Positions 2,145-61,461 of a stretch of DNA of 64,000 bases are shown here, in pieces. The DNA is from Malus domestica. Its lineage: Eukaryota > Streptophyta > Magnoliopsida > Rosales > Rosaceae. Position 1 is the first letter of the stretch. Each line of letters starts with the position of its first letter. The position numbers were made by a program, and so were the translations under genes. The stretch covers positions 28,707,501-28,771,500 of the forward strand of contig NC_091677.1 of assembly GCF_042453785.1 (NCBI RefSeq). The letters are read 5' to 3'. Under the pieces are notes generated by a model. It had not been told where the DNA came from and ran no database searches. It worked only from the letters and a program-made list of their open reading frames with translations.

Positions 2145-2488
2145 GATAAATTAGATTTTCATCCTTCATTTTGCTACTCCATTGATAAAAATTATATTCA
2201 TTTTCAATTTTTTTGGGTTAATTTTGAAGAATGTACCCATGTTTATACACACACACACACAATAGTATATTTATATTTTAATATTTTGAATCCCACAAAT
2301 TATGGTTTTTGATTTAAAATCTCATTTATATAAACAACTAAAATTTCTAATTTTTAATTTAAAAAATATAGTAACGTACATAGAAATAAATTATCACATT
2401 AATTTCAAGGACCTCGATAAAAAATTAAAAACCAACAAAATTTCAATCAAATAATATTCATAGCTAAGGACCGTATCCAAGTCTCCCT
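2145..2488. mobile_element. TGTACCCA-rich non-autonomous element, internally deleted
   Basis: This is AT-rich DNA with repeated GTACCCAT motifs and a short AC tract, flanked by a direct repeat TAAAAATAT (2136-2144 and 2489-2497) that is single in copy C. It is the shortened form of the element at 7960-8919 and is related in reverse orientation to 29633-30352. No coding region. The 8-10 bp target duplication would fit a hAT-like or MULE-like DNA element; the superfamily is not resolved. Confidence 0.65.
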
Positions 2489-2698
2489 TAAAAATATGGT
2501 ACAAATGATAGTACAAATATAAGATAAAAGTAATATTACTTGAGAGAAAAACTGAATGGGGCTCAGGTTGATATTCGACTTGCTACGTGACACTACTAAA
2601 ACCACTCAAAATCTATCATGTTGTAAGTTTTAATATAATCTTTTATGTTTTTTTATAGTTAAATTACTCATAATTATTTTTCCTACTAACTAATATAC

Positions 2699-3872
2699 AG
2701 ACCTGGATTGTCTGCCCTCCCCCATCCATTCCTTTCTCATGCCCTCTTACTTTTCCAGCCATTGACTTAATATTTAGTTATTTTAATGCTCCAGATTTTG
2801 CCACTTCACCAACAACTCCAAAGCATCTTTAAAGCCCAATTTTGCATACTTTTCTGCTGTCTTTCCCGCCCTTCTATCCATTTCCTGACTTTGTTTGCTG
2901 CCTTTTCCCCATCTAAAGTCCTTTTTCTCCCGCCTCTTCCACTTTTCCCACCTCCTGCCGATTAGACACCGCTGCATCTTCATTGGGTCTTCCCAGGTCT
3001 GTTTATGTAATTTTCTTTGCTTGTTTTTGGTCCTTTTTGCTATTGGATTTGTATGGCTTCCTTGTCTTGTAATCCCGCTTATCTTGGAGCCGAAAACCCT
3101 CCTTACTACAAGCATAAATTCTTGAAGTGACTTCATTAGTTTTCTTATTCTTGTAGTGACGATCTTTTCTAATACTAAATCCCACTTTTCGTCTATAGGC
3201 ATTGTATAAATTATAGGCTGCTTCTTGCGAATCAAACTCCACACCACACCTCGCTGTACAATCGAATTCGATCGAGTCATCATTGTTGATATTATTTGCT
3301 TCTTCAGAATCAATCATTTTCAATTGGATCTGTAGTATAGAAAAAGGTATGGTAGAGAAAAAAAAATAAACATTTCAAAGTTTGTTTCTTTACGGAGGTT
3401 GTGGGCTTTAATCAACTAGTATGCTTCAAAATTGTTCTTTAATCAACTAGTATGCTTCAAAATTGTTCTCAATTACTCTAGAAGAACAAATAATGGGATT
3501 AAGTCGGCAAAAGAGGACCCCCAACATGTTATCAACAAGAAAATACAAATCCAATAGCAAAAAGGAGCAAAAACAAGCAAAGAAAATTAGGATGCAGCGG
3601 TGTCGAATCAGCGGGAGGTGGGAAAAGTGGAAAAGGCGGGAGAAAAGGGACTTTAGAGGCGGGAAAGGCAGCAAAACAAAGTCAGGAAATGGATAGAAGG
3701 GCGCGGGAAAGGCAGCAGAAAAGTATGCAAAATTAGGCTTTAAAGATGCTTTGGAGTTGTTGGTGAGGTGTCAAAATCTGGAGCATTAAAATAATTAAAC
3801 ATTAAATCACTGGCTAGAAAAGTAAGAGGGCATGAGAAGGGGATGGATGGGGAAGGGCAGACAATCCAAGTG
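2699..3872 (-). mobile_element. MULE-type element with long TIRs, copy A
   Basis: The terminal inverted repeats are long, roughly 2699-3050 against 3540-3872. The ends read AGACCTGGATTGTCTGCCC on the left and, reverse-complemented, CACTTGGATTGTCTGCCC on the right. A 10-bp direct repeat ACTAATATAC flanks it (2689-2698 and 3873-3882), and the related site at 14848-14857 holds one uninterrupted copy. Long TIRs plus a 9-11 bp TSD are typical of Mutator-like elements. Inside is a FAR1-type domain ORF on the minus strand but no transposase core, so this is a non-autonomous deletion derivative. It has a 31-bp tandem duplication near 3418-3480 absent from copy B. Confidence 0.85.
3003..3323 (-). CDS. 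FAR1-type DNA-binding domain ORF inside the MULE, copy A
   Basis: This 106-codon reading frame has an acidic start followed by the N-terminal part of a FAR1 domain: FDSQEAAYNLYNAYRRKVGF, then an SIRKDRHYKNKK segment and YACSKEGFR. FAR1 domains are WRKY-GCM1-like zinc DNA-binding modules found in FHY3/FAR1 proteins and MULE transposases. The transposase and SWIM parts are missing. Its 3' end runs into the element's TIR. It may be a remnant of the autonomous parent's first exon or a small DNA-binding protein; expression is unknown. The ORF is 106 codons in both copies. Confidence 0.55.
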   Translation of the reverse strand: MKMIDSEEANNINNDDSIEFDCTARCGVEFDSQEAAYNLYNAYRRKVGFSIRKDRHYKNKKTNEVTSRIYACSKEGFRLQDKRDYKTRKPYKSNSKKDQKQAKKIT

Positions 3873-4101
3873 ACTAATATACACCATGAGATTATCTAAT
3901 GGTTTTTTTTATTTTTTTTTATTTTATTTTTAATAACATGGGGTTGGAATCCAAGAGTTATTCTCATTAGGAGTTACAAGCATCTTGATGTTCCTCAAAG
4001 TCATAAGGAAAGACATCCTGCATTACATAGAATTTAACTTCAACAATGAATTTACACAAATACCTAATTCAAAGCAAAGGGTAAAAGGAAAAACATAATA
4101 C

Positions 4102-4621: not shown

Positions 4622-4812
4622 CTACAACAAATTGATCGATATCGAATATCGAATATGAATAAGTAAACAACATGTATATAGAAAAACCAAATCAAACATA
4701 CAAATTAGTTACCTGATTAGTTGAAGGGGAACGAGCATTGGCATTGGCGGTATGTGAAGGACCACCACTACTTGGTGGTTTGGTTTTCTCTGAACAAGTA
4801 AATAACAACTAC

Positions 4813-4849
<37 letters not shown>

Positions 4850-5474
4850 AGAATAACACAAATGTAAACATTTAAAATGTACAAGTTTCTTACTAGATAA
4901 GCCAGTAACATTTGATGTCTTCTTTTTACGTTTCTCCATATGACTTTTCAATCTAGCATTACTTATTCCCTTTGGCCTCACACTCGGAGGATTCAACACC
5001 GGTGCCTCATCAGATGAGTTATTGACTCCATCAGTATCACGAACAGTAGCATCATTCAAAACGTCATTACTTTCTTTATTAGCAATTTCTTCCCCATTTG
5101 ACTTCATTTCTTTGTCAAGCAATTGTGCCATTTCTTTCAATTTTTTCATTGCAATTCTATGACAACTTTCTATCTTAGCTCCCATACTCAATATACCATA
5201 AGCAATCCGCATCAAAGTATTCCGACGCAACGTCATTGACGAATTGTCACTTACATGTAAAGATTCTCCATGCTCATTTTCATTCCATTCTTTCTTTGCA
5301 TCTTTCGTCCACCGCTTCAATATGTATTGATTTGGTATTTGAGAAACTTCTTTTACATTCATTACCCGTAGAGCATGACGACATAACAAACCCATGGATT
5401 CAAACCTTTTGCAACTACACGAGATGTTGAAAGTTGAGGAGTTGAATTTGACAACATAAACTGTCTTATGCATT

Positions 5475-5570
5475 GGTGGTTAACAAACCCATGGATTCAA
5501 ACCTTTTGCAACTACATTAGATGAAGGGAAACGGGCATGTGCATTGGTGGTTAACAAACTCATACTCAAG
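5475..5570 (-). other. Scrambled junction between transposase core and SWIM exon
   Basis: On the minus strand the transposase exon runs to FLEYEF and then continues into about 45 nt nearly identical to the 63-nt cassette at 4477-4415. Next comes a piece of the SWIM exon (TAGTTGCAAAAGGTTTGAAT), then a second short cassette piece, and only then the SWIM exon proper. The pieces join at short shared words such as GTTTGTTA. This looks like template switching or gene conversion inside the locus. It removes the normal spacer between core and SWIM finger. Confidence 0.7.
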
Positions 5571-7576
5571 AAATTTATAAATTTTTCTCGTGTAGACACT
5601 TGCAGCACGTTTAAGAAAACCACTATTTTTAGCTGCTGTAAAAGGCAAACCTTGCTTGCAACGAAAGGTTTCTTCTAATTCTTTTGAACGCATGCCATTT
5701 GCTTGTTTTTCATAATGAAGCACAAATTCAGTAAGAGTCATCATTTTAGTAGACATACGATGGAAAACATTATTCATGCTCTCACTTATTTGTGTGGATT
5801 TTATCCTCACAGAGAATGCATCTTGGCTAAACACTGGACACCACTTCTCACAAATGGCATAAAGACCTTTAAGCCATTTGTTTTGTGCAACGTTAAATTC
5901 CTCAATCATTGCATCCCAAGTATGCTGAAATTCTAACTCTGTTTGACATCCGTCAAGACACTTGTTGAATAGCCTCTTGAATTCAGGGATTCCATAAAGT
6001 GTTGGTATATTTCTTGTAGCATTCGTTGATATATGCCATGTGCATAAATGATGGCATGTCCCAGAAAACACCACCATAATGGCATTTGCCATAGCTTGAC
6101 ACTGGTCAATGAAAATGGTTGTAGGCTTTCGATTCCCCATTGATTCTAAGAATGCCTCAAACAACCATTCAAATGTAGCAGTCTTCTCATCCAACAAAAA
6201 GGCATAACCCAGCAACACATTGCTCCAGTGATGGTTAACTCCAACGAAAGGAGCACAAATCATGTTGTACTTATTGGTTCGATATGTAGTATCAAATACT
6301 ACTACGTCCCCGAAGCACTCATAATCAATTATGGACCTTCCATCCCTCAGTTAGTCATTCGGTTTTCTTGATCAACTTGCACCGTGTAGAAGAACATTGG
6401 ACCTTCAGCTTGCTTGCGCTTAAAATGATTGATCAAGCTTTGAGCATCCCCTGCTTTAAGCATAATTCTTTTTTCCCTACTAACAAAATTGTAGCAATCT
6501 GTTTTCGTAAACCCAACATTTTGAGACCCGCCGACTTCTTTTGCTAAATACGAGTACGTATTTGTAGTTCTTATACTTGCATTCGCCATGGTTTTAATCA
6601 CACCCATATGAGCTTCTGAAATTTTACGATTTGATCTTAAAAATTGTCTTTCCTCTGGCATTGCAAGTTCATGATTGTGTTTAGGATCAAAGGTAGAGAC
6701 TTTCCACTCACCATGTTCTAGTAAAAATCAAATTTTGGCTTGGCGGCCTGTTCTCTCGTCCAATCTCTTAGTCTTTTTCTCTTCACAAGGGTCTCTATCT
6801 TGCCGAAAACCTTCTTTTGAACAATAAAAATTAAGTGTTGAAAGATCTCCATTTTTGTCAATCTTCTTTGTTTTTTTCGAATGCTAAAGCCAATGTGTAC
6901 TGCATACTAATTATAGAGATCATAAGCTTCTTGCTCATTTTTCACAATCTTTCCATACAAATCTCCAGCGTAACTCTCTTTAAGACGTACAATAGGTGGA
7001 GTTTTTTCTCGAGCATTGCATTGAATATTTTCTACATTGCTTTCAACATCAATGACTGCATTATTCATTAGGAGATCAACAATAATCAGATTTTATTAAA
7101 AAATAATATCATGGCCAAGAGCAAAAAAGCAGTGTCCTATAATCATGCAAAATGTTTAAGAGCTCACACATACAACTTATTAAAAGGCAAAATCAAATAC
7201 CTTCGTCTGAGTTTGAGTCTACTTGCAGAAAGCTACCTTCATTTGGGTTTGAGTCTACCTGCAGAAAGCTACTTTCGTCTGGGTTTGAGTCTTCATCCGT
7301 AATACCTTGGTCTGGGTTTGAGTCTCCATCCATAATACCTTGGTCTAGGTTTGAGTATGTGAGAAATGGAGGGAATTGTTGTTATTTTTCAAAGAAAGAA
7401 GAGGGAATTGAGTCTGCAACTTCCCTTGAAGTTCGCAAGAAGCTTTTGATTTGAAACAAAGAAACGGAGATGTTAACAGAGTTATGAGGAATCTTTTGGT
7501 TTTTGAGTTTTCAGCTTTTTCAAGTATTTTTTAAGTTAACAAATGACAACATCTAGCTGTCAACATTTAATAGGTT

Positions 7577-7959: not shown

Positions 7960-8643
7960 GAGAAATTAGATTTTCATCCTTCATTTTGCTACTCCATTGA
8001 TAAAAATTATATTCATTTTCAATTTTTGATCAAGATCCTTGGGTATTAATAATATCATTATTTATTTTAATAATAAAATATTTTTTTATTTCTAAATATA
8101 TTCATTTAATGTTAAAAATGTTACAATTAGTATATTTATATTTATGACTAAATTTTTTATCTTATATTTTTAGTTTTAGTTTGTACCCATTTTTAATTTG
8201 TAATTTTTTTTAATTTGTACTAATTTTCTTTTCAATTTTAATTTGTACCCATATATTAATTTATTTTTATGCCCATATTTTTTAAAGTTTATTTCTATTT
8301 GTACCCATATATATAGATATATATATATATATATATATTACTTTTTACTTTTCTAAATGTACCCATGCTAATTATATGTACTCCTTCTTAAATATACCAA
8401 TTTGTTATATGTAAAATGTATCCTTTTTTTTATATAAAATCTATTCAATTTTTTTCTAATCCATTTAGGGTATATTCTTTTTTCTTTGATTTTAAAATGT
8501 ATCCATGTCAAGTTTAATCAAAGAAATTTACTAATGTTGTTAAGCTTAATATCTTCTTCTTTTTTTTGTGATTTTGAAGAATGTACCCAAGTTTTGATAC
8601 AATAAATTTTTTTTGGGTTAATTTTGAAGAATGTACCCATGTT

Positions 8644-8693
<50 letters not shown>

Positions 8694-8919
8694 AGTATAT
8701 TTATATTTTAATATTTTGAATCCCACAAATTATGGTTTTTTATTTAAAATCTCATTTATATAAACAACTAAAATTTCTAATTTTTAATTTAAAAAATATA
8801 GTAACGTACATAGAAATAAATTATCACATTAATTTCAAGGACCTCGATAAAAAATTAAAAACCAACAAAATTTCAATCAAATAATATTCATAGCTAAGGA
8901 CCGTATCCAAGTCTCCCTT
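7960..8919. mobile_element. TGTACCCA-rich non-autonomous element, fuller copy
   Basis: About 960 bp of AT-rich DNA with many dispersed GTACCCAT or TTTGTACCCA words and an (AC)22 tract at 8647-8690. A direct repeat TAAAAATAT flanks it (7951-7959, 8919-8927). The homologous site in copy C lacks it. The reverse complement of most of it is found at 29633-30352. The end reads GTCTCCCT, matching AGGGAGAC at the start of the reverse copy. There is no ORF of interest, so it must be mobilised in trans, if at all. Confidence 0.7.
8647..8690. repeat. (AC)22 microsatellite
   Basis: This is a pure AC dinucleotide run inside the TGTACCCA-rich element. The equivalent run in copy A is much shorter (2250-2262) and appears as (GT)n in the reverse copy at 29861-29886, so it is length-variable within this window. 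Confidence 0.95.
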
Positions 8920-9128
8920 AAAAATATGGTACAAATGATAGTACAAATATGAGATAAAAGTAATATTACTTGAGAGAAAAACTGAATGGGGCTCAGGTTG
9001 ATATTCGACTTGCTGCGTGACACTACTAAAACCACTCAAAATCTATCATGTTGTAAGTTTTAATATAATCTTTTATGTTTTTTTATAGTTAAATTACTCA
9101 TAATTATTTTTCCTACTAACTAATATAC

Positions 9129-10271
9129 AGACCTGGATTGTCTGCCCTCCCCCATCCATTCCCTTCTCATGCCCTCTTACTTTTCTAGCCATTGACTTAA
9201 TATTTAGTTATTTTAATGCTCCAGATTTTGCTACTTCACCAACAACTCCAAAACATCTTTAAAGCCCAATTTTGCATACTTTTCTGCTGTCTTTCCCGCC
9301 CTTCTATCCATTTCCTGACTTTGTTTGCTGCCTTTTCCCCATCTAAAGTCCTTTTTCTCCCGCCTCTTCCACTTTTCCCACCTCCTGCCGATTAGACACC
9401 GCTGCATCTTCATTGGGTCTTCCCAGGTATGTTTATGTAATTTTCTTTGCTTGTTTTTGGTCCTTTTTGCTATTGGATTTGTATGGCTTCCTTGTCTTGT
9501 AATCCCGCTTATCTTGGAGCCGAAAACCCTCCTTACTACAAGCATAAATTCTTGAAGTGACTTCATTAGTTTTCTTATTCTTGTAGTGACGATCTTTTCT
9601 AATACTAAATCCCACTTTTCGTCTATAGGCATTGTATAAATTATAGGCTGCTTCTTGCGAATCAAACTCCACACCACACCTCGCTGTACAATCGAATTCG
9701 ATCGAGTCATCATTGTTGATATTATTTGCTTCTTCAGAATCAATCATTTTCAATTGGATCTGTAGTATAGAAAAAGGTATGGTAGAGAAAAAAAACTAAA
9801 CATTTCAAAGTTTGTTTCTTTACGGAGGTTGTGGGCTTTAATCAACTAGTATGCTTCAAAATTGTTCTCAATTACTCTAGAAGAACAAATAACGGGATTA
9901 AGTCGGCAAAAGAGGACCCCCAACATGTTATCAACAAGAAAATACAAATCCAATAGCAAAAAGGAGCAAAAACAAGCAAAGAAAATTAGGATGCAGCGGT
10001 GTCGAATCAGCGGGAGGTGGGAAAAGTGGAAAAGGCGGGAGAAAAGGGACTTTAGAGGCGGGAAAGGCAGCAAAACAAAGTCAGGAAATGGATAGAAGGG
10101 CGCGGGAAAGGCAGCAGAAAAGTATGCAAAATTAGGCTTTAAAGATGCTTTGGAGTTGTTGGTGAGGTGGCAAAATCTGGAGCATTAAAATAATTAAACA
10201 TTAAATCAATGGCTAGAAAAGTAAGAGGGCATGAGAAGGGGATGGATGGGGAAGGGCAGACAATCCAAGTG
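9129..10271 (-). mobile_element. MULE-type element with long TIRs, copy B
   Basis: This is the duplicate of the element at 2699-3872, with the same 10-bp TSD ACTAATATAC (9119-9128, 10272-10281) and the same interior. It is shorter by exactly the 31-bp tandem duplication seen in copy A. The shared TSD and flanks show that the two copies arose by segmental duplication, not by two transpositions. Confidence 0.85.
9433..9753 (-). CDS. FAR1-type DNA-binding domain ORF inside the MULE, copy B
   Basis: A 106-codon ORF identical in translation to the one at 3003-3323 in copy A. The FAR1-domain signature (SQEAAYNLYNAYRRKVGFSI, then YACSKEGFR) is present, while no transposase core or SWIM finger follows. 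Whether either copy is translated cannot be judged from sequence. Confidence 0.55.
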   Translation of the reverse strand: MKMIDSEEANNINNDDSIEFDCTARCGVEFDSQEAAYNLYNAYRRKVGFSIRKDRHYKNKKTNEVTSRIYACSKEGFRLQDKRDYKTRKPYKSNSKKDQKQAKKIT

Positions 10272-10427
10272 ACTAATATACACCATGAGATTATCTAATG
10301 GTTTTTTTTATTTTTTTATTTTATTTTTAATAACATGGGGTTGGAATCCAAGAGTTATTCTCATTTCCTGGTTTGTTATTTCAAATTTTCAATTGTGGAA
10401 TGTTAAGGAAGGAGTTAATTGATTTCG

Positions 10428-11830: not shown

Positions 11831-14039
11831 TTAGGTAGTTGAAGTTGTCTGATTATCCGAGCCAAAAATATTTCCCGCATCAGCCTTTTTGCTAGCTTTT
11901 CCCTTGCTATTGTTTCCTACTTCTGTTGAAGCCTCAGCAGTGAGCCTTCCCATCTTCTTCTGCAGGTCAGCCAGCGGATCATTTGATTGTTTTCCCTTGG
12001 AACTTTTCTTTGCCGTGCCAAACTTCAGCTCCAACCTATATAGTGCACAGGCGTCTGAGTTGTTGACCTCATACTCAAACAAATGCCACTCGTGATCGCT
12101 TGAAGGCTGTGGATCCATATAATAGGACCTTTTCTGCCCCCCATATTCCTTCATTACCTGCTTTCTTGATTCATGCCATCCACGCCCGCTGTAGTCTGGC
12201 AGTGACCTCTGCTTCCTATTTCCACTCTCAAAGGCTCTTCTAGGCCTACCAAAAAAGAGCCACTCCCTAAGCGTTTCACCCTCGAGCAAAGAAAGATCAA
12301 ATAGCTCTGCAATATTGAATTATTGGTAGCCAGTCAGTGATAAATAAAGTAATAATTCACTTCACTCTGAACCGATAAATGACTAGCTAATAGGAAAAAC
12401 ATAACAAACGGCAGATACCCGAATCATTCCATGGAGATCTTAGAGTAGCAGCCCCATCACAATTGGGGATTCCCACATCCTTCCCCTGTGTCTTAGCATT
12501 AAGCGCGGCAAAAAGTGAACCATCCTTCAAAGCAATGCCCCCAGGTCGCAGAACGGGAGTGTTCCCAGGAAGACCTTCATTTCTTGCTAAAAGGGCATGG
12601 CCACTACTGCAATAGTCCTGACACAAAACTTGGGCAGGCCTGGAACAATCCCAAAGAGCACATTTTGGCCCCAAGAAAGCAGAAACTGGAGGACATATAT
12701 CCGGCATAACATTTGGCACAACATCCTCTTCAGACTGTTTAATGTCACTGTGAGTGATGAAAGGCCCTTCATTTAAGTAATCAGGAAATTCAAAGTGATT
12801 ATTGTTCATTTGAGTAGTCAAATCTGGGATATCAACCATTGTATTCGGGAAATTGGACGCAGTGTGGCATTGGTCAAGGTCCAATCCTTGAAAAATATCT
12901 TCTTGAGGTTCCTTAGAAGAAACGAAAAAGTCCTGAAAAATTGGTTAAGCATAGAGCTCATCAGTAATCAATCACAACTCAAGTAGACATATCCTTAAAA
13001 ATTCCGAAACCACAGCATAGAAGAACAATGAGTACTGTCAAGAATACAATAAATCATACAAAGCAAATCCTATGCTTAATTTCCCAATTCATGGTTTCTA
13101 TCTTCCATTCCACGTTTGGGTCAATTGACAAGATTTACATTAGTCACCAGAAAGCAACCAATATGGGAAGAAAACATTGAATTGGACTCTAAAACTATTG
13201 AAAACTTACACAAAACATCCCTAAATCAAACAAATATGTTGCTCAATAAACCTCTTGGTTGTCCAGGACTCCAGATAGTTATGTAAAGGAAGATAAACAC
13301 CAAACAATGTCAAACATATCTCAAAATCTTGCTCGTTTACGGAATTCCACAACAGGAAGGGAAAACCATGTTGTACTAAATGCGAAAACATCAAGAAAAT
13401 TTCATATGAAAATTTAGCTAATATACGATCAGACTGAATGATGAAGAAAAGTTAAAATAATATGCAGACGAATCATAAACAACCGTTGAAATCTTCCACC
13501 ATAAAAAAGAAAAAAGTATTTACCTCTGTAAATTCCGTGAAATTAATCGAGTGAGGGTTTTGAAGATTAGGTTCTGGGCCTTCAAGCTTAGGTTGTGGCA
13601 ATTCCTTCAATGGACTTTCTGCATCATCTTTCTCATCACAATGTTGTTTCAAGAGCCGGGCTAACTCCTCAGAAAATGATCCAAGGCTTCCATGGCTACC
13701 ACCCTACAGATTTCGAATGTAATCGGATTTTATACACTTACCAAACATTACTCGATACAAAAACACAAAATCCGAAAACATAAATAAAAAACCAGCAAAT
13801 GAGAAAAAACCCACATGCAAGGAAGATGCAGGGGACGGGTCATTGAGCTCGGCACCCCACCCGCCAAGCATCTGATGCATTTGGTCCTCCCAGATGGCAA
13901 TGTCGGCAGTCCGACCCTCATTCCTGGCAATTTGAATATTGGTGACCATCCCTTGAAGCTCTTGGACTCGAGTCTTTGCTTTTTCCTTCAGTAGCTTGTG
14001 AGAAGCAGCCTCACACTTGCCCTTGGAGTCCTTCAGCAT
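11831..14039 (-). CDS. VOZ: VOZ (vascular plant one zinc-finger) transcription factor
   Basis: Four exons on the minus strand: 14039-13815, 13703-13524, 12932-12419 and 12306-11831, all with GT-AG junctions and consistent phase, giving 464 codons plus a stop. Family landmarks in order: basic N-terminus (SASHK-like, here [15 protein letters not shown]), SPASSL before [17 protein letters not shown], then the zinc region [11 protein letters not shown]...CQDYC...[16 protein letters not shown], and the C-terminal DNA-binding block [41 protein letters not shown] proteins bind DNA as dimers through this zinc finger and basic region and act in flowering, phytochrome and stress responses. Length fits the family (about 450-490). 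Between two zinc ligands the sequence reads AQVLCQDYC, about two residues shorter than the usual form as I remember it. The start is the ATG before LKDSKGKC, aligned with known N-termini from memory. VOZ1 versus VOZ2 is not resolved. Confidence 0.93.
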
Positions 14040-14390
14040 TGCTGCCCTCTGCTCTCTCCCTTCCGCTTCTAATAAAATCCCTTAAAAAAAAATTAAAAAA
14101 AAATCAAGAATCTTTCTTGTATGTTAAGTTAATAAACAATCTAATTAGAGAATTAAACGAACAAAAAACATAATTGAAATCATATTGGGGATAATACAAA
14201 CCCTAATTATAAAAATCCAGAGAAAGATGAATGTTGAATGAAAAGGAAAAACGAAAAGCATAGAAAGAGAGATAGTATATACTTCAAATCAACCGAATTA
14301 AACGTTTGAGCAGATTTTTAGGTTCCGAGATTTTGGCTGCTCTTCCGTCTCCTTCCGCGATTTGTTCATTCACTCAGCCGGTCCGTCCCT

Positions 14391-14935
14391 CTTTGTTCTC
14401 GATTGTTTTTCCTATCCTTTTGTACTGGGGTGACGTCTCTATTTGTACTAGTACTTGTATGAGTACTAAACTTTTTTAAATTAAATTTACAAACCTAACA
14501 ATGTGATTGTAGATCATTATATTATTAATTAAGTTGATTAACGTGCTTATTTATTTTAAACATCTGATCTCTCTAGCATTACCCTATTTTTATTATTTAT
14601 TTAGTAGATATACAACTCATATGTGTTGGTAAGCTCTACTTTTATTAGAAATATGGTACAAACTATAGTACAAATATATAATAAAAGTAATATTACTCAA
14701 GAGAAAAATTGGGTGGGGGCTCAGGTTGATATTTGACTTGTTGCATGACACTATTAAAACCACTCAAAATTTATCATGTTGTAAGTTTTAATATAATCTT
14801 TTATATTTTTTTAATAGTTAAATTACTCATAATTATTTTTCCTACTAACTATTATACACCATGAGATTATCTAATGTTTTTTTTTTCTAATAACATGGGG
14901 TTGGAATCCAAGAGTTATTCTCATTTGTTGGTTTA
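14391..14935. promoter_or_regulatory. VOZ upstream region, copy C (ancestral arrangement)
   Basis: This is directly upstream of the intact minus-strand VOZ gene and homologous to copies A and B. It lacks both transposons. The site ACTATTATAC (14848-14857) is the uninterrupted MULE target, and the region near 14655 is the uninterrupted target of the TGTACCCA element. No individual promoter motifs could be assigned. Confidence 0.7.
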
Positions 14936-22635: not shown

Positions 22636-23360
22636 TTTATTTTTTTCTTCTTTCTTCTTCTTCCTCCTTCTTCCTCCTTCTTTTTCTTCTTCTTCCTCCA
22701 ACTGCAACTTTTTTTTTTCTTTCTCCTTCTTCTCCTTCTTCCTTCCCCTTCTTCTTCTTCTTCTTCCTCCGAATCTGGGGAAGATGAAGTTTTTTTTTTC
22801 TTCTTCTTTCTCCTTCCTCCTTCTTCTTCTTCCCCATATTCGGTTTTTTTTTCTTTTTTTTTCTTCTTTCTTCTTCTTCCTCTTCCGACTGCAACTTTGT
22901 TTTTTCTTTTTTCTTATTTCTTCTTCTTCTTCTTCCGACTGCAACTTTTTTTTTCTTCCTCATTCCCCTTCTTCTCCTTCTTCTTCTTCCTCCGAATATG
23001 GGGAAGATGAAGGTTTTTTTTTTTTCTTATTCCTCCTTCTTCCTTCCTCTTCGTCTTCTTCTTCTGCCTCCGAATTTGGGTTGCACATTCGATTTTTTTT
23101 TCTTTATTCTTCTTTCTTCTTTTTTCTCCTTCTTCCTCCTTCTTCTTCTTCTTCCTCTGACTGCAACTTTTTTTTTTCCTTCTTCCTCCTTCTCCTTCTT
23201 CTTCTTCTTCCTTCTTCTTCTTCTTCTTCTTCCTCTGACTGCAACTGTTTTTTTCCTTCTTCCTCCTTCTCCTTCTTCCTTCCCCTTCTTCTCCTTCTTC
23301 CTTCTTCTTCCTTCTCCTTCTTCTTCTTCCTCCGAATCTGGGGAAGATGAAGGTTTTTTT
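22630..23360. repeat. Polypyrimidine block of CTT/CTC repeats with modules
   Basis: About 730 bp of almost pure C/T on the plus strand, mainly CTT and CCTT units. It is interrupted at intervals by two purine-containing modules. The first is GACTGCAAC followed by a T-run (about five times). The second is CTCCGAATCTGGGGAAGATGA or a variant followed by a T-run (about four times). The modular layout indicates growth by unequal exchange of compound units. Long ORFs on both strands here are low-complexity artefacts. Confidence 0.9.
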
Positions 23361-40600: not shown

Positions 40601-43600
40601 GCCAAACTGCTCTTGTTGATGCACTTCAAGCCATTTAATTCAATTGAAGGGGTAAATTTCCATCCGGAAGATAGACAGAAAATCCAAATTTGTAACCAGT
40701 AGACAATGTTCAATTGGGAGACTATTGGCTTTGCTTCTAATTATTTGTTCTGCATTGCAGCACAATGCTGAACCTGAAGCTGTCGACCTTTTAATGGAGG
40801 TAAAATTTATTAATTAATTCTTCAATATTCTTTGCCTGTGAAGCCTTCTTGTTCTATCCCTTTCTTCTTGGGCCTGATAGTTTGACCAATGGGCAGGTTG
40901 AAGACCTAGATCTGTTAATTGAGCATGTTGATAAAACAAATTTTAAGAGGACTTGTCTCTACCTCACCAGTTCAGCAAGGTAAGCAGATGAAGTTTAGAA
41001 ATTTCTCTTTGCATGTGACATTCTTATGGGGTAAAAGGTGGCATAGTTTCTCACGACTACTCAAAAGTCCGATTTAAGTTGATAACTGAATTTTTCTTTA
41101 AACAAGTTCATAACATCAGATGTGGAGGAAATATATGGAGGTATTCCTATGTATGCACCTACTACGGGCTGGTTTGGTATTGCTGTGCTTTGAAAAAAAA
41201 CTGCTTCTGCTATGCTATGAGAATAAGCTCATTTTTGATGCTTCACCTTTTCAGTTTTTATCACCCAAAACTATGAAAATAAGCTGTTTTTAAATGTTTA
41301 CCAAACACTTTTTTGAGCTCAGCTTTTTTTGATACCCATTTTTATAAAAGCACCTCAGTACCAAACCAGCACTACATATGACCATACCTGCCTAAGGACT
41401 TAGTTTTTCCAAATTCTTTGATTTTGCTTCTTTGGGGGATGATGTTAGAGCAACTACAAGACTTTTCAATACCAAGTGAACCTGCTTTCCAATTTGGATT
41501 GCATTCTAGTTAGTTTTAGGGTTTTAGTTATTTTCTTCTTTCTTGTCTGAAATTTATTTTGGAGAAAGCGTATGATAGGGTCCCAAGAGACATTCTTTGG
41601 AGAATTTTAGAGAAGAAAGGAGTACGAGTAGCATATATCCAAGCTATACAGGATATGTATGAAGGAGCAAAGACTGCCGTAAGAACTCATGAAGGACAAA
41701 CCGAAAGCTTTCCCATAACTGTAGGATTACATCAAGGCTCATCCTTAAGTCCTTACCTTTTTGCGTTGGTAATGGATGAGTTAACAGGACATATTCAAGA
41801 TGATATTCCTTGGTGTATGCTTTTCGCAGACGATATAGTGTTGATAGATGAAACTCAAGAAGGGGTAAATGCAAAGCTTAACCTTTGGAGAGAAGTGTTG
41901 GAATCTAAAGGTCTTCGCCTAAGCCGATCAAAGACAGAATATATGGAGTGCAAGTTCAGTGCAAATGGAGGCCAAAACGAGTTAGGGGTGAGGATCGGAG
42001 ATCAAGAAATACCAAAGAGCGACCGTTTTCGTTACCTAGGATCTATCTTGCAAAAGAACAGAGAATTAGATGGAGATCTCAACCATAGAATACAAGCTGG
42101 ATGGATGAAGTGGAAGAGTGCATCCGGCGTGTTGTGTGACCGCCGTATGCCACTGAAGCTCAAGGGAAAATTTTATAGGACGGCAATAAGGCCGGCGATG
42201 CTGTATGGCACAGAATGTTGGGCGGTGAAGCATCAACACGTACACAAAATGGGTGTAGCGGAGATGAGGATGCTTCGTTGGATGTGTGGGCACACGAGAA
42301 AGGATAAGATTAGGAATGAGGATATTCGGGGTAAAGTAGGAGTAGCCGAAATTGAAGGAAAGATGAGAGAAAATCGGTTACGGTGGTTTGGACATGTGCA
42401 AAGAAGGCCTACTGACGCTCCGATTAGAAGATGCGACTATGGGACAGAGGTTCAGGGCCGAAGGGGTAGAGGAAGACCCAGGAAAACTTTGAGAGAGACC
42501 CTAAGAAAAGACTTAGAGTATTTGGATCTAACGGAGGACATGACACAGGACAGAACACAATGGCGTTCTAAGATTCATATAGCCGATCCCACTCAGTGAC
42601 TTGGATTTTCCAAGTCTCCAACCGAGAAGTTGTCCTCGCTCGGGAAATTAAGGGAACACTACCTCAACCTACATGCTCCACTCACAAAGCTCCAACATAC
42701 AAGCTTCAACAAAAGAAAATTCAAAGAACTTAGCGAAGAAGGCTTTGGTGATTTAACACAATACGTTGAAATGAAGGAAAGCTTATTTATTGATATCCCC
42801 GATAAATTACAAATATGTACATATACTTGAGTCAAAATAAACAAACAAGAGGGAGCCTTCACAAAGGTTGCTTAGGAGAAGTCTCGGCAGTCGGTAGAGC
42901 CCCAGAAAGAGAAGGCACCGGAGGGGGATCATTCGGAGCCTCAGTACTGGACAGAACCCTAGAAGGAGGAGGCATCAGAGGTTGATCATTTGGAGCTTCA
43001 TTACGCGGTACAGCCCCAGAAGACGAAGGCAATAAATGCCTTTGGAACAAACCCACAAATCTCTGATGATCAAGTAAAACCTGACCATCAGATTCCTTCA
43101 TCTGGTCAAGCTTCCTCTTCATGTTTGTAGCATAGTCATGTGCGAGCCGGTGCAACTGTTTATTCTCATGCTTGAGCCCTCTAATCTCCTGTTTGAGACT
43201 CATCACTTCAGCCGCCAATGATTCAACTTGGCGGGTTCGAGCAAATAGGCGTTGGGCCATATTAGACACAGAACCTGCACACTGAACACTAAGAGCCAGA
43301 GAATCCTTAACAGCCAACTCATCAGACCGTTTGGAAAGTAGTCTGTTATCTTTGGGAGTGAGAAGGTTCCTGGCCACTACCGCAGCGGTCATATCATTCT
43401 TCATCACGGAATCCCCAACGGTAAGAGGACCAGTAGGGGAGACGAAGGATGGGCGCCATATGTTGTCTGGAGAAGGCGGGGCTGCCTCTTCAACAAGGTT
43501 CAAGTCAAAACGACGGTCGGAGGGGCCAGACATTTTCAAAGGTGTAGAAAAGAGAAGAGGTCGGACAAATCAAGATCTTAGAAGTGCAAGAATGGAGCTT

Positions 43601-46600
43601 CTACTGGTGGATATTCAAGTGTGCTTTGGAACTTAATGTCAGCCTCTATAAAAATCTGCACTCGACGAAGCTTCAGAAATCGAAGAGGCGTTGCTTTCTC
43701 AAAAGCTGGGCTGCTCAGAGACCACGAGGGTCGATCTCAGAAATCGAAGAGGCGTTTGCTTTCTCAAAAGCTGGGCTGCTCAAAGACCACGAAGGCCGAT
43801 CTCAGAAATCGAAGAGGTTTGCTTTCTCAAAAGCTGGGCTGCTCAGAGACCACGAGGGCCGATCTCAAAAATCGAAGAGGTTTGCTTTCTCAAAAGCTGG
43901 ACTGCTCAGAGACCACGAGGGCCGATCTCAGAAATCGAAGAGGTTTGCTTTCTCAAAAGCTGGGTTGCTCAGAGACCACGAGGGTCGATCTCAGAAATCG
44001 AAGAGGCACCTACTTTTCCAGCCTTGTCAGCACCTGTCACACGCACTCAGCTTTGCGGAAATTATGGGCATTCTGTCGATGATTTCTGGCGAAGTAGAAA
44101 GCACATGAATCATACTGTTCAATCACCCACTTCCCACACGCAACAGTAGCTCATGGGTACCACATATAACTTTGCCAAAGTCCTCTGACAAAGTTGAGAC
44201 TACTTTTCCAGCCTTGTCAGCACCTGTCACACGCACACTCAGCTTTGCGGAAATTATGGGCATTCTGTCGAAGATTTCTGGCGAAGTAGAAAGCACATGA
44301 ATCGTACTGTTCAATCACCCACTTCCCACACGCAACAGTAGCTCATGGGTACCACATATAACTTTGCCAAAGTTCTCTGACAAAGTCGAGACACGTGAAG
44401 CTTGCAACTCTCACTACATCGCTCTGACCAAGAAGGGTAAAAGAATAGCAAAGAAACAACACTAACAAAGTTTAGACACATAAATTTTGACGGCCTAGCT
44501 ACCATATTATTACCCACAAGGGTAAAGGAACAGTACCACTGCTGGATAATTGGAAAGTCCCGGTGTGTCAACCTCTGTGCTTCATGGCAAGGTAGACTAG
44601 CAAACATGCCCAACCTTTACTCACATTCGAGAAAACACTCCCAACAAGATTGCTTGCCCCAAAATCGAAGAGGCATCGCCCTCCGAATCTCGAGAGCCAG
44701 ACTCCCAACATGATTACTTTCTCAAAAATCGAAGAGAGGGTAAAGGAACAGTACCACTGCTGGATAATTTGAAAGTCCCTGTGTGTCACCCTCTGTGCTT
44801 CGTGGCAAGGTAGACTAGCAAACATGCCCAACCTTTACTCACATTCGAGAAAACACCCCCAACAAGATTGCTTGCTCCAAAATCGAAGAGGCACCGCCCT
44901 CCGAATCTCGAGAGCCAGACTCCTAACATGATTACTTTCTCAAAAATCGAAGAGAGGGTAAAGGAACAGTACCACTGCTGGATAATTGGAAAGTCCCTGT
45001 GTGTCAACCTCTGTGCTTCGTGGCAAGGTAGACTAGCAAACATGCCCAACCTTTACTCATATTCGAGAAAACACTCCCAACTCCCAACATGATTACTTTC
45101 TCAAAAATCGAAGACACCGCTCTCCGATTCTCGAGAGCCAGACCCCCAGCATGATTGCTTTCTCAAAAATCGAAGAGGCATCGTTCTCCGAATCTCGAGA
45201 GCCAGATCCCCGACAGGATTGCTTGTTCGAAAACCGAAGAGGCACCACTTTCCCAACTTCAAGAGCCGGATCTCCTTGGATAAAGCTTGTCTGTAATCTT
45301 CACACGCAACATCAGCTTTCCAGATACCACAGACCATTTTTTCAAAGTGCTCTGACAGAGTTAAAACTTGTGAAGCTGGCAGCTCCCACTACCGTGCTAT
45401 GACCAAGCAGGGTAAAGGAATAGCATTATTACTTGATGTTAGGGAGACTCCTATATATGTCGACCTCCATCCCCAACGGACAGGCAGACCTGCAAAAATG
45501 CTCAACCCTTCCTCTTATCTGAGAGGGCACTCCCAACGAAGCCTTTCGAAATATTCAGCTTTCTTTCCCCCCGATAATACCTCTGTAAACAAGCTATACT
45601 AGAGCAAGAATATCTCATATCATCAGGGTTAAAAGCAAGAGTATCCCATATCATGCTTTTTCCCTGTCTTTTCCTTTGGCCTTGTTCTTACCTGCAAGAC
45701 AAGGAGAAAGAGAGCAATCAGTCAGCACTTGGAATCAAGCTTCCAGCCAGGAACTGACTGCCTGGAACCCCTTACCCTGACATTGCTCCCGAGTACTCAT
45801 CTTTAACATCTTATGCTTCCAAGGAAGATACCGCATCTGCCTGAGGAACAGATAGGGCAAGTGAGAAGGATACAAGGAAGCATGTGGAGACAAGCGTAAC
45901 AGCACACGTGCCGATACATCCACTACTCTGTCAAAAGCAAAAGTATCCCATATCAGCAGGGTCGAACGTACTCTAGATTTGATGGACTTGTTTTGACCCT
46001 CAAATTCTTCAGTCGGCCTTATACTTTGGAGGAAACCAGAAAACCCTCCAGCCCAGTTCAAGAATAAGCCTGTGGAAAGTTACTTCTTCAAAAGCAAAAG
46101 TATCCCATATCATCTCTTCTCATTTTTCTTCTCTTTATCCTTCATGCTGCCTGCAAGATAGGGAGAATGTGAACAATCAGCCGGAGCTCTGATTGCTTAC
46201 CTTGTCTGTTACCTCTTTCAGCAGATCCCCTAGCTCGGCGACTTGGGGGACTCCTACTACATGGTTTGTATCGCGCTTGACCAAGCCTGAAACTACAAGT
46301 AAGCTTCAAGTGACATTGATACATTACCTTGTGCATCTCCACCAGTTACAGATACCACCCCTGGATGGAGGAAGAGTACTTCCAGAGAAGATTCCACATC
46401 TACCTATGAGACAGATAAGGAAAGTCAAGCCGATACCACACTCCGGGACTTAGAAGTTTCGTGGTTACGAGATCATTCTCCCACAATATTTCCTAATGTC
46501 TTTTGTACTAAATCATTCACTTGTACTCCCTAAAGGAGAGCTTGAACCTATGTACTTGTGTAAACCCTTCACAATTAATGAGAACTCCTCTATTCCGTGG

Positions 46601-49600
46601 ACGTAGCCAATCTGGGTGAATCACGTACATCTTGTGTTTGCTTTCCTATCTCTATCCATTTATATACTTATCCACACTAATGACCGGAGCAATCTAGCGA
46701 AGATCACAAAAAGTGACCGTTTTCGCTACCTAGGATCTATCTTGCAAGAGAACGGAGAATTAGATGGAGATCTCAACCATAGAATACAAGTTGGATGGAT
46801 GAAGTGTAAGAGTGTATCCGGCGTGTTGTGTGATCGTCGTAGGCCACTGAAGCTCAAGGGAAAATTTTATAGGACGGCAATAAGGCCAACGATGTTGTAT
46901 GGCACAGAATGTTGGGCGGTGAAGCATCAACACGTACACAAAATGGGCGTAGCGGAGATGAGGATGCTTCGTGGGATGTATGGGCACACGAGAAAGGATA
47001 AGATTGGGAATGAGGATATCCAAGGTAAAGTAGGAGTAGCCAAAATTGAAGGAAATATGAGAGAAAATCGGTTCCGGTGGTTTGGACATGTGCAAAGAAG
47101 GCCTACTGACGCTCCGGTTCGAAAATGTGACTACGGGACAGAAGTTCAGGGCCGAAGGGGTAGAGGAAGACCTAGGAAAACTTTGGAAGAGACCCTAAGA
47201 AAAGACTTGATTACTTGGATCTAACGGAGGACATGACACAAAACCGAGCGCAATGGCGTTCTAGGATTCATATAGCCGACCCCACTTAGTGGGAAAAGGC
47301 TTTGTTGTTGTTGTTGTTGTTGTCTGAAATTTATTTTGTATTTAGTTTGGCAGATCGTATTTATTAGGCTTTTTAAGTGTTCAGGTAATTTTTGAAGCAT
47401 TTCACAGGGGTAGGGTTGAATTGTTAGTTAAGCAAACAAGGACCAGGATGCTAGGCTTACTAACCCTAGTATAAATCTCTTTTAGGAGGCTCAATATGCA
47501 TTTTACCCAGTTTACCTCAGAAAATTAGATTTAGAGTCTATCTATGCCCTAGAACTGATCTATCGACTTTTGAAATTTGATCCCATTGCTTTTTCTCTAT
47601 TGTTTCAACTTTCCTATTATTAATTGCCAGAAATTCCATTTCTAGTGCATTACCATAAAACGTTTTAAAGGTTTCAGTCGCAGAATTTGGCTGTAAAAAA
47701 ATAATATGCCATGTTTTTTTTTCCTTATAGTCACAGAATATCGTGCACCAGATGCTTTTATAGACTCGTGAGACTCTTCATTTCTTATTTTTTGTATATC
47801 ATATATTAAGTTGCTGCCAGGTGCCATTGTATTATTTGTTCTTTCATTCTCCTTGACTCTTCTCCCCAGTGCTGACTTTTTTCTACTTATTTTACATATT
47901 GCAGATACCTTCCTGGACCAGATGATGTTCTAGTTCTGGATATTGCATACACAATATATATGAAATTTGAAGAATATCCAAATGCACTTCAGATTGCACT
48001 GTTCCTTGATAACATGCAGGTTTGTGCCATGCAACAGTTTTGATATTTCTTGAAACATGTATTTATATATATTGTTTGAAACATGTATTTATAACTATAG
48101 TTGAGTATGCAACTGTTCATTTTCTTTAGTGTCTGAGAGAAGATTATTTCTCTGTGAAATGAGAAGTTTGCAGTATGTATATGTTGTATATGTCATTACC
48201 TGTATCTGGTCTTTACATATTTCTAATGATTTGGTACTAACAATCATGATTGTATGTATGCAGAATATAAAGAACGTCTTTACATCATGTGATGATCTGC
48301 TTCGTAAAAAGCAATTTTGCTACATCCTTGCTCGACATGTAAGTGTTTAATTTTTGTTTTTTTACATTTCCTTCTTTATATGAAGGAATGCATGCTTATG
48401 TTCCTTGTCAAAACATGTTGTAATCTATGTTCTGAAATAGAGTTATATTCTCTTCTCATGATACACTCATGGTGAGATTTTAACTTGATTCCTTGACAGG
48501 GAGAGTGAACTGTGATGGGTTTGTTCTGGGTGGGGTAGTGTATCCTCTTGTTCCTTGTTCTTTCTCTCTCTTTGGCTTTTTATTATAAGATAAGTGGGTG
48601 CATGTAGTTAGGTGTCATTGCTTAAGTGATATCAATTAGCCTTGGAAGTATTTTGTGCATTTTTCCTGAAAGGTAACATTGCACAGTAATGTCGTATGGT
48701 ATATTTTTTATGCTTGTTTACTTAAATATAATAATTTTAATCGCATTTATATTTCATGCAGGGTATTAGTTTTGAGCTTGATGATGAGATGGTTGCGGAG
48801 GATGATGACAGGGAAGTATTGCAGGACATTATCAACAATACTAAGCTAAGTGAAGGTTATCTTACTCTTGCTCGTGATATTGAGGTCATGGAGGCCAAAA
48901 CTCCAGAGGATATCTACAAGGTTTGAACTGATTATTTGTATTGCTTGATCTACACTTATATGCATGTCTACAATGTCTGTGGGATGTGTAATGAGAGAAT
49001 AAATGCAATATAATTGTGTTTTGTTCATTGCAGTTGTGTAATTTATATTATCCTTCTTATCCCTTCTCTGATAATTATATCGTCTTGGAATTTTCATTTA
49101 GGCACACTTACTTGATGGCCGTGCAAGTGCTGGTGCTAGTGTTGATTCAGCAAGACAGAACTTGGCTGCAACATTTGTTAACGCTTTTGTAAATGCTGGA
49201 TTTGGTCAGGTAAATTTTTTTACACTTGATGTATCTGTTAAAAAGTTGACGATTTTTGGAGTTGATTGACATGCTTTCTTTGATGCTTCTTTTTGGTGCA
49301 GGATAAGTTGATGACAGTCCCATCAGATGCCTCAAGTGGAGGCTCTTCAGGAAACTGGCTTTTCAAGAATAAAGAGCATGGGAAGACAAGTGCTGCAGCA
49401 AGTCTGGTATGCATGACTATATTACCTTGCTCATTTTATCATCTTATTTTTAACTTCATTTTACAATCTGCTTTGTTATTCTTCCTGACAGGGTATGATT
49501 TTATTGTGGGATGTTGACTCTGGACTTGCCCAAATTGACAAGTACTTCCACAGCAACGATACCCATGTTATCGCTGGTGCATTATTGGGGGTTGGGATTG

Positions 49601-59883: not shown

Positions 59884-61461
59884 ATGATTTTTTCAGCACA
59901 AAGTCGCTCTTGCTCGTCCTTGCGTTGTTTCCAGTTATTCTCCTCTCTTGGTAGTTTCCATTCAGTTCAAATCCGTCGTTCCTGCTCTTCATTCCCCAAC
60001 CTTAATGACCCAAATGGAGACACAAAGGACGCTAATGATGCTGAGTTGATATCGAAAATCCTTGTCCACCACCATAATCCCTTCCACGCTATGGAGTCCT
60101 CTCTCCAACTCCACGGTATTACTCTCTCCTCCCAACTCGTCCACCACACCCTCCTCCGTCTCACCAATAATTCCAAGATTGCCCTTGCCTTCTTCCACTA
60201 TGCCAAGTCCCTCCCCAACCCTCCTGTCACCACTGCCTCCTTCAACCTGCTCATTGACATCCTTGCCAAGGTCCGTCAGTATGACGTCGCTTGGCAGCTC
60301 ATTGTTGAAATGGACAACTTCAACCTCACTCCCACTGCCACCACATTTCTTACCCTAATTCGCCGATTGATCTCCTCTGGCCTCACCCGCCAAGCCGTTC
60401 GGGCCTTTGACGACATTGAAACCTTCGTCCAAACCAAGCCCAGTAGCCAAGATTTTTGCTTTTTGCTTGATACCCTTTGCAAATACGGTCATGTTAAGGT
60501 TGCAACAGAAGTTTTTAACAAAAAGAAGCATGAGTTTGTCCCTGATGTCAAAATGTACACTGTTTTGATCTATGGGTGGTGTAAGATTGGTCGTTTCGAT
60601 ATGGCAGAGAGATTCTTGAGGGATATGATTGAGCATAGTATTGAGCCCAATGTCGTTACATATAATGTCTTCTTGAATGGTATTTGTAGGCGTGCGAGTT
60701 TGCACCCTCAGGAAAGGTTTGAGAAGACGATAAGGAATGCAGAGACGGTGTTTGAGGAAATGTGGAAGAGAGGGATTGAGCCCGATGTCACTAGTTTTTC
60801 GATTGTGCTTCATGTTTATAGCCGGGCACATAAGCCCGAGTTGTCGCTTGATAAGCTGAAGCTGATGAGGGAGAGAGGGATATTCCCCACAGTGGAAACT
60901 TACACTTCAGTTGTAAAGTGTCTTTGCTCGTGCGGGAGACTTGAGGATGCAGAGGAGTTGCTTGGTGAGATGGTGAGAAGTGGGGTTAGTCCATGTGCAG
61001 CTACGTATAATTGTTTCTTCAAAGAGTACAGGGGGAGAAAGAACGGGGAAGGTGCTTTGAAGTTGTACAGGAAGATGAAGGAGGATGGTTTGTGCGTGCC
61101 CAGTATGCACACTTATAACATATTGGTGGGAATGCTTTTGGAATTGAATCGAATGGAGATTGTGAAAGAAATATGGAATGATATGAAAGAGAGTGGGGTG
61201 GGACCAGATTTGGATTCGTATACTATGTTGATTCATGGGTTATGTGCAAAACAGAAGTGGAGGGAGGCTTGTCAGTTCTTTGTGGAGATGATAGAGAAGG
61301 GTCTTCTTCCTCAGAAGATTACTTTTGAGACACTCTACAAAGGGTTGATACAATCTGATATGTTGAGAACTTGGCGAAGATTGAAGAAGAAACTCGATGA
61401 AGAGTCTATTTCGTTTGGATCAGAGTTCCAAAAGTATCACCTTAAGCCATTTAGGAGATGA
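59884..61461 (+). CDS. P-class pentatricopeptide repeat protein, probably organellar
   Basis: One uninterrupted exon of 525 codons, as is normal for plant PPR genes. The first 40 residues are rich in Ser, Arg and Phe with no acidic residues (MIFSAQSRSCSSLRCFQLF), a plausible mitochondrial presequence. From about residue 115 onward come tandem 35-residue PPR motifs, for example VKMYTVLIYGWCKIGRFDMA, NVVTYNVFLNGICRR, TVETYTSVVKCLCSCGRLED and DLDSYTMLIHGLCAKQKW, about ten in all. There is no E, DYW or SMR domain, so it is a P-class protein expected to bind specific organelle RNAs. It resembles Arabidopsis At2g13420-type proteins from memory, which is unconfirmed. Confidence 0.92.
   Translation: MIFSAQSRSCSSLRCFQLFSSLGSFHSVQIRRSCSSFPNLNDPNGDTKDANDAELISKILVHHHNPFHAMESSLQLHGITLSSQLVHHTLLRLTNNSKIALAFFHYAKSLPNPPVTTASFNLLIDILAKVRQYDVAWQLIVEMDNFNLTPTATTFLTLIRRLISSGLTRQAVRAFDDIETFVQTKPSSQDFCFLLDTLCKYGHVKVATEVFNKKKHEFVPDVKMYTVLIYGWCKIGRFDMAERFLRDMIEHSIEPNVVTYNVFLNGICRRASLHPQERFEKTIRNAETVFEEMWKRGIEPDVTSFSIVLHVYSRAHKPELSLDKLKLMRERGIFPTVETYTSVVKCLCSCGRLEDAEELLGEMVRSGVSPCAATYNCFFKEYRGRKNGEGALKLYRKMKEDGLCVPSMHTYNILVGMLLELNRMEIVKEIWNDMKESGVGPDLDSYTMLIHGLCAKQKWREACQFFVEMIEKGLLPQKITFETLYKGLIQSDMLRTWRRLKKKLDEESISFGSEFQKYHLKPFRR

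Follow-up and report, generated by a model that had tools for sequence, protein, structure and literature searches.

What is a repeat-rich block of about 4 kb, with an open reading frame (ORF) on its opposite strand, doing between two stretches of a long interspersed nuclear element (LINE) in an intron of the apple gene RPN1? The block was examined in a 64-kb stretch of Malus domestica DNA (contig NC_091677.1, positions 28,707,501 to 28,771,500, forward strand; hereafter the window). Coordinates are positions in this window, and genome searches were run on the 651-Mb assembly (19 contigs). In a preliminary description of the locus, a transposon-derived block with an intact antisense gene between LINE sequences was rightly seen, and was taken to be nested in a LINE. 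LINE sequence does lie on both sides, but it belongs to the same mobile unit: the block is very probably the cargo of a chimeric LINE family, and the window copy one insertion of it. LINE sequence flanks the block because the block belongs to the LINE. The mechanism is that of an ordinary LINE and the content is unusual, since part of a Gypsy retrotransposon has become permanent, highly amplified cargo. The window copy is a single, 5'-truncated LINE insertion in an RPN1 intron. It spans approximately 41558–47323 and is bounded by a perfect 19-bp target-site duplication (TSD; TTGTCTGAAATTTATTTTG at both ends).

The chimeric unit would consist of a LINE with one endonuclease–reverse transcriptase ORF, joined at its stop codon to approximately 4 kb of a Gypsy 3' region. 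The Gypsy piece would comprise an antisense gene, tandem repeats and the 3' part of a long terminal repeat (LTR), and a second LINE 3' end with a (GTT)n tail would close the unit. Within the window, 42013–42598 and 46707–47291 are two copies of one LINE 3' region. The right-hand copy reaches (GTT)n and the left-hand copy extends upstream as a reverse transcriptase ORF, whose stop codon (TGA) is created at the junction with the cargo. In a longer copy (L009), 665 open codons end at this junction stop (RVT_1, PF00078, E 3.7e-36), and this frame stays open through the next 1,050 bp upstream (L055; Exo_endo_phos, PF03372, E 1.7e-8), which places endonuclease and reverse transcriptase in one frame, as in a LINE. 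The same 665 codons are all open in 6 of 20 copies. Because the endonuclease–reverse transcriptase frame is open through L055 and L009, at least one copy may be autonomous. As the RNA would start with the LINE ORF and end with the LINE 3' end, the LINE protein, probably acting on its own RNA, could use target-primed reverse transcription to copy the unit in full. The LINE is presumably of the RTE clade, a label that goes by the single ORF and the short-repeat tail and not by a reverse transcriptase phylogeny.

Searching the genome for the block yielded 6,645 first-look candidates, of which 36 were scored: 33 were full-length at 99–100% identity (window included) and 3 loci were split in two. 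Of the 32 full-length loci besides the window, the 20 closest were fetched with 2-kb flanks. Left and right LINE/cargo junctions were identical in all 20. This bears on the possibility that the block is an independent non-autonomous LTR element, either a terminal-repeat retrotransposon in miniature (TRIM) or a large retrotransposon derivative (LARD), or a solo LTR, that was inserted by chance in a LINE. The block limits happen to read TG...CA and the right end is LTR sequence, as such an element would have it. However, the same two junctions recur at 20/20 loci without a 5-bp TSD, and in place of own ends with a TSD of 4–6 bp the flanks read CTCAG on the left and CAAAA on the right every time. 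Both limits fall in microhomology with the LINE, and the LTR is truncated on both sides: the parental LTR (514 bp in locus L047) begins 223 bp before the equivalent of 46469 and extends approximately 53 bp beyond the right limit. Chance insertion is refuted for the copies read and highly improbable overall. Nor do these results uphold a new class of non-autonomous element, as first proposed: the block lacks ends of its own, is flanked by the same LINE sequence in 20/20 copies and moves within the LINE. Known retroelement hallmarks are not missing either, contrary to what had been stated, since LTR sequence forms the right end and the unit as a whole bears the hallmarks of target-primed reverse transcription.

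Beyond the junctions, homology stopped at, or within approximately 20 bp of, (GTT)n in 20/20 copies and was followed by unlike DNA. The tail was fixed and 5' truncation variable, as is typical of LINE insertions: 15 of the 20 copies extend upstream beyond the 5' end of the window copy, and five are truncated inside its span (at 41656, 41791, 42010, 42377 and 42468). TSDs varied from copy to copy; in addition to that of the window, four of the five short copies (L011, L020, L021, L023) had TSDs of 16–22 bp, lengths that represent the longest shared strings and may take in a few element letters. Had one locus spread by segmental duplication or ectopic recombination, this would account for the high identity among copies (mean pairwise difference in the cargo 0.0076 among 21 copies), but not for homology that ends at the tail in every copy, differing flanks, varying 5' ends, and TSDs in the window copy and in four of five testable others. 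For the copies read, these features rule duplication out, and we give it even less credence than chance insertion. At a substitution rate of 4e-9 per site per year, as given in PMC11197308, the pairwise difference would correspond to a cargo age of about 1 million years, which is too low for the family as a whole, the copies having been picked for their similarity.

Across the genome, the left junction was found at 2,422 and the right junction at 2,499 sites with up to 2 mismatches (reversed-pattern controls, 0 each), and the LINE 3'-end pattern at 4,651 sites. Within the first 22.54 Mb of contig C1, 56 of 60 left junctions were followed downstream by a right junction or LINE end, a left junction was in range for 42 of 55 right junctions, and 57 of 100 LINE 3' ends were chimeric. 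Spacing ranged from 3.2 to 4.48 kb (4.11 kb in the window), and values clustered around 3.7, 3.9 and 4.47 kb; the clusters are presumably repeat-number variants.

The origin of the cargo was traced through its right end. The right-end pattern of the block was not followed by C at 25 places. Of these, 21 were chimeras with a variant right junction (17 of them were measured and differed from the window by 2.9–4.4% in the cargo tail), one (L030) was joined to the LINE elsewhere, and three (L036, L047, L048) were LINE-free at the junction. In L036 and L048, the sequence continues via the LTR end CATCAACA into a primer-binding-site-like TTTGGCRCCGTCTGTGGGAAC (TTTGGCRCC... in both) and then a gag-like region (PF03732, E 8e-14 in L036), so that a putative primer-binding site and gag follow the LTR in the parental family. 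L047 and its neighbour L054 (contig C14) form a LINE-free copy colinear with the cargo, with identities of 90% at 42589–43540, 85% at 45080–46468 and 92% at 46469–46710; the repeat arrays between these segments match piecewise at lower identity, and the antisense ORF is broken by stops. The parental antisense-ORF region (L054) was found at 39 further genome places at 90–92%. The parental LTR end occurs at 2,115 sites, including a few that, like L030, are LINE-joined further on. Among 100 of these 2,115 LTR ends listed, six same-strand pairs lay within 16 kb (7.6 to 15.7 kb). An LTR pair enclosing the antisense-ORF region was found at contig C8, where LTR-end sites 21571215 and 21579249, 8,034 bp apart, enclose a region match (21575646–21577747; all on the plus strand), which is one of 40 region matches and is known from positions only and not from sequence. 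The preliminary description had allowed that the block might prove an internal part of a Gypsy, TRIM or LARD family. The region does exist LINE-free in a Gypsy-type LTR family, once between LTR ends, but its LINE-borne amplification was unforeseen.

Transposase_28 (PF04195) was not detected in the antisense ORF at E≤1. Its 24 genome places included none within 15 kb of the 40 region matches or the 100 LTR ends listed. The parent is provisionally labelled a Tat-like Gypsy element, and only provisionally because the ORF is without Transposase_28 and the reverse transcriptase of the parent was not seen. As a separate observation, the same Gypsy LTR end is joined at L030 (C1, approximately 29323918) to the LINE ORF at a different point, equivalent to 41791 in the window; therefore, LINE/LTR joins arose more than once, or a LINE inserted there.

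At the left junction, the fusion lies in CCACTYA, common to the LINE (CCCACTTAG) and the parent (CCACTCAAT), and at the right junction in AAA (GATCATAAA vs AAAGCGACC). Such short shared sequence fits either template switching in LINE reverse transcription or DNA end joining followed by read-through. We infer one of two origins for the founding fusion: either a Gypsy remnant lying between two LINE copies was transcribed by read-through, or template switching took place, as has been reported for LINE reverse transcription in Magnaporthe and mammals (PMC2104539). Part of the LTR sequence in the cargo presumably lies beyond the poly(A) site and would be missing from the 3' end of a normal Gypsy RNA; given the presumed site, this slightly favours the DNA/read-through route. 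No source locus with a LINE, a Gypsy remnant and a second LINE end side by side was present among the loci read, although no dedicated search was made. Compared with L047, the cargo lacks approximately 67 bp of internal region together with the first 223 bp of the LTR, TATAAATA included, at 46468/46469, and approximately 53 bp of the LTR 3' end. The deletion at 46468/46469 might be tied to the start of LTR transcription, but the break directly follows the TATAAATA of the LTR, closer than a start site usually lies.

Several points weigh against a chimeric LINE family as proposed here. No TSD was found in one of the five short copies (L024), and TSDs are seen only in the window and the short copies, the 5' ends of the 15 longer copies not having been located. 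On the part of C1 given above, no left junction was in range for 13 of 55 right junctions, and no end lay downstream of 4 of 60 left junctions, as would be expected from truncation or mutation. The whole block was read in only 21 copies (window included), which are the most similar ones, and more divergent copies were read only near the right end (25 loci, 21 chimeric). Finally, the first LINE copy has lost its 3' end, which simple read-through alone does not explain.

Table 1. Features of the chimeric LINE insertion and its cargo (window coordinates).
Feature	Position	Strand	Remarks
Left TSD	41543..41561		TTGTCTGAAATTTATTTTG; 19-bp perfect repeat with 47320–47338; outermost letters may be common with the element
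5'-truncated LINE ORF, reverse transcriptase part	41558..42599	+	ORF 41655–42599, RVT_1 E 2.7e-15
Left LINE/cargo junction	42583..42605	+	Microhomology CCACTYA with parental Gypsy family; 2,422 genome sites
Cargo (region before 3' LTR plus 3' part of LTR, Gypsy-type)	42600..46706	+	Colinear match to LINE-free locus L047+L054 on C14, ~81–92% in main segments
AATAAA, poly(A)-signal-like hexamer	42786..42791	-	~70 bp past antisense stop; read from sequence
Antisense ORF, 224 amino acids	42859..43533	-	Long helix/coiled coil; no Pfam family over cut-off
Tandem array, 57 bp x 2.5	42892..43031		Tandem Repeats Finder (TRF) score 148; inside antisense ORF
TATA-like TTTTTATAG, putative promoter	43646..43654	-	~115 bp before antisense ATG; proposed function
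Tandem array, 63 bp x 5.3	43673..44006		TRF
Tandem pair, 192 bp x 2.0	44010..44392		TRF
Tandem array, 218 bp x 3.0	44519..45177		TRF
Tandem array, 64 bp x 2.9	45083..45267		TRF; overlaps 218-bp array
3' part of parental LTR	46469..46706	+	Alignment to L047; ~290 bp absent at 46468/46469
Right cargo/LINE junction	46697..46719	+	2,499 genome sites
Second copy of LINE 3' end	46707..47303	+	92.5% identical to 42013–42598 over 586 bp
(GTT)n tail	47304..47323	+	In 20/20 fetched copies
Right TSD	47320..47338		TTGTCTGAAATTTATTTTG repeated

The cargo (limits approximately 42590/42600 to 46706) was described initially as satellite-like, with four related repeat levels of 62–66, about 73, 190 and 218 bp. 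Arrays of 63/64, 192 and 218 bp were recovered by TRF (scores 230–1115) and a 73-bp level was not. A monomer motif common to all levels had also been proposed. TTTCTCAAAA and ATCGAAGA are indeed concentrated in the block, with 9 of 9 and 12 of 13 sites of the window, respectively, falling in 42501–46800, but the 192-bp unit has neither motif between 44010 and 44392. The long, homogeneous arrays of satellite DNA were not found, the largest array in the block having 5.3 copies.

The antisense ORF runs from 43533 to 42859 and is real, with 224 codons plus stop instead of the 226 first counted. In a single-sequence AlphaFold2 model (mean predicted local distance difference test score, pLDDT, 70.1; 77 residues at pLDDT ≥90), a short helix (44–56), one long helix (60–167) and no other structure are predicted. 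The poly(A)-like signal noticed after the ORF was located as AATAAA at 42791–42786 on the minus strand. A search of the PDB returned weak matches only (E 0.42–0.65), and no relatives were confirmed in viral and genome contig collections. The antisense gene is presumably transcribed.

Is the antisense protein under constraint? If selection has kept it and it now helps the chimeric LINE, the family would be a LINE with a second gene on the opposite strand, a reading that we regard as tentative and somewhat improbable. The antisense frame was intact in all 20 copies read. The 224-amino-acid frame was without stops in 150/150 scored matches at 99–100% identity, these being the best 150 of 10,268 candidates, with 33 at 483 bits and 113 at 481.9 bits; on C1, 10 of 11 ORF matches among these 150 adjoin a LINE left junction. 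At L033, divergence from the window amounts to 3.4% for the cargo tail and 4.8% for the LINE end, yet the ORF (C2:12990656) scored 481.9 vs 483 bits. An unconstrained protein should show more amino-acid changes at 3.4% divergence, although this concerns one locus. A 33-bp ORF pattern left open at 7 synonymous sites was found at 3,814 places, and at 865 when open at 7 second positions. In the part of C1 for which letters were available, the synonymous-open pattern gave 62 places (15 exact, 47 with synonymous changes only) and the second-position-open pattern 16 (the same 15 exact ones and one other). However, this contrast is biased because the second pattern fixes third positions too, and the pattern counts track few inherited haplotypes.

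Diversity in the ORF was less than half that in the rest of the cargo (0.0038 vs 0.0083, 21 copies), outside CpG and CHG sites too, and could reflect selection, methylation or local mutation rate. CpG sites in the same copies were changed at 2 of 1008 in the ORF vs 38 of 2577 in the repeats, as if the ORF were less methylated. Against selection, the 20 young copies carried 18 non-synonymous and 10 synonymous changes, not clearly below the neutral ratio of 2.74:1, and codon-position changes (6/11/11) had no third-position excess. The window ORF and the decayed parental copy differ by 43 non-synonymous to 17 synonymous changes, and the 150 scored matches are best scores only. Any constraint may date from the parental LTR family. 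Functional constraint on the antisense protein is thus possible, and part of it may be that old. Protein conservation between subfamilies favours a protein that serves the LINE; substitutions among young copies do not. More speculative, and in our estimate unlikely, is a two-strand retrotransposon, in which the LINE would have taken over a Gypsy-derived antisense gene with promoter-like repeats and a poly(A) signal, and a minus-strand coiled-coil protein under selection would help the plus-strand LINE.

The identification of the host gene as RPN1 in the preliminary description was borne out by a match of 48741–48923 to RPN1/PSMD2 chains (best E 1.9e-22). What we take to be RPN1-like exons, picked out by eye from translations, flank the insertion on both sides. 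Elsewhere in the window, an uninterrupted pentatricopeptide-repeat ORF of 525 amino acids lies at 59884–61461 (PPR_2, E 5.4e-71). Large duplicated segments (2208–3968 vs 8608–10365, 95.8%; 935–2148 vs 13478–14658, 85.7%) sit in a repeat-rich region, in which reverse-strand ORFs within 4709–6263 presumably resemble a Mutator-like element (MULE)-type transposase. CT-rich arrays with units of approximately 50–78 bp (22640–23333; TRF) give long, probably spurious ORFs.

A chimera that stayed mobile to approximately 2,400 places offers a natural experiment on the amount of foreign sequence that a LINE RNA can carry and on whether the cargo helps. At approximately 6 kb each, and judged by junction counts, these copies could make up approximately 2% of the genome. 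Annotation can be misled, since the same sequence belongs at some sites to an LTR family and at others to a LINE, and since the ORF could be called as thousands of host genes. The function of Tat-group antisense ORFs becomes testable in a second host element.

The anatomy of the cargo is already known, since an antisense ORF and tandem repeats before the 3' LTR have been described for Retand elements (PMC11963269). The parental family shares with Retand/Tat Ty3/Gypsy elements these antisense ORFs and arrays, gag and, after the LTR, the primer-binding-site-like TTTGGCRCCGTCTGTGGGAAC (PMC11963269, PMC6317226), and its 514-bp LTR in L047 is within the published Retand range of 315–1,194 bp. Transposase_28 is given for the antisense ORF in 97% of clusters in PMC11963269 and in 23% of Retand elements in PMC6317226. 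In contrast to Retand/Tat elements as described there, the ORF here has no PF04195, and the cargo has neither an LTR pair nor the stretch immediately preceding the LTR, and is carried by a LINE. Two further retroelements of apple were likened or set apart by description only: HODOR (KX869746.1, 9,716 nt; PMC8558331, PMC6445120, PMC11197308) is likewise of high copy number, and redTE, a Gypsy insertion of 4,097 bp with LTRs of 1,274 bp and TSD CATAT (PMC6445120), differs in structure.

Among LINE chimeras, the double template jump product of Magnaporthe MGL likewise has three fused segments, a LINE 3' end and a 14-bp TSD in MGL (PMC2104539). It is described there as a single tripartite copy, whereas the present chimera was amplified again, to approximately 2,400 places, and has the LINE ORF at its 5' side. 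LINEs and other retrotransposons that perform 3' transduction also carry, within the RNA, sequence from downstream of the ORF (PMC13317346); unlike transduced sequence as described there, the cargo here is 4 kb of another transposon with a complete antisense ORF and is ended by a second LINE 3' end. A plant LINE with LTR-element cargo was not found in literature searched by title, which is not proof of absence. To our knowledge, LINE chimeras of such kind are mostly isolated copies. What is unusual, in an element compared with HODOR by description and not by sequence with it or with Repbase entries, is a plant LINE that carries such cargo at approximately 2,400 places, with the ORF intact in the 150 best-scoring matches. 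The SVA elements of apes are similarly composite, tandem-repeat-bearing units spread by LINE machinery. SVA is non-autonomous, whereas here at least one copy of the unit has endonuclease and reverse transcriptase encoded within it.

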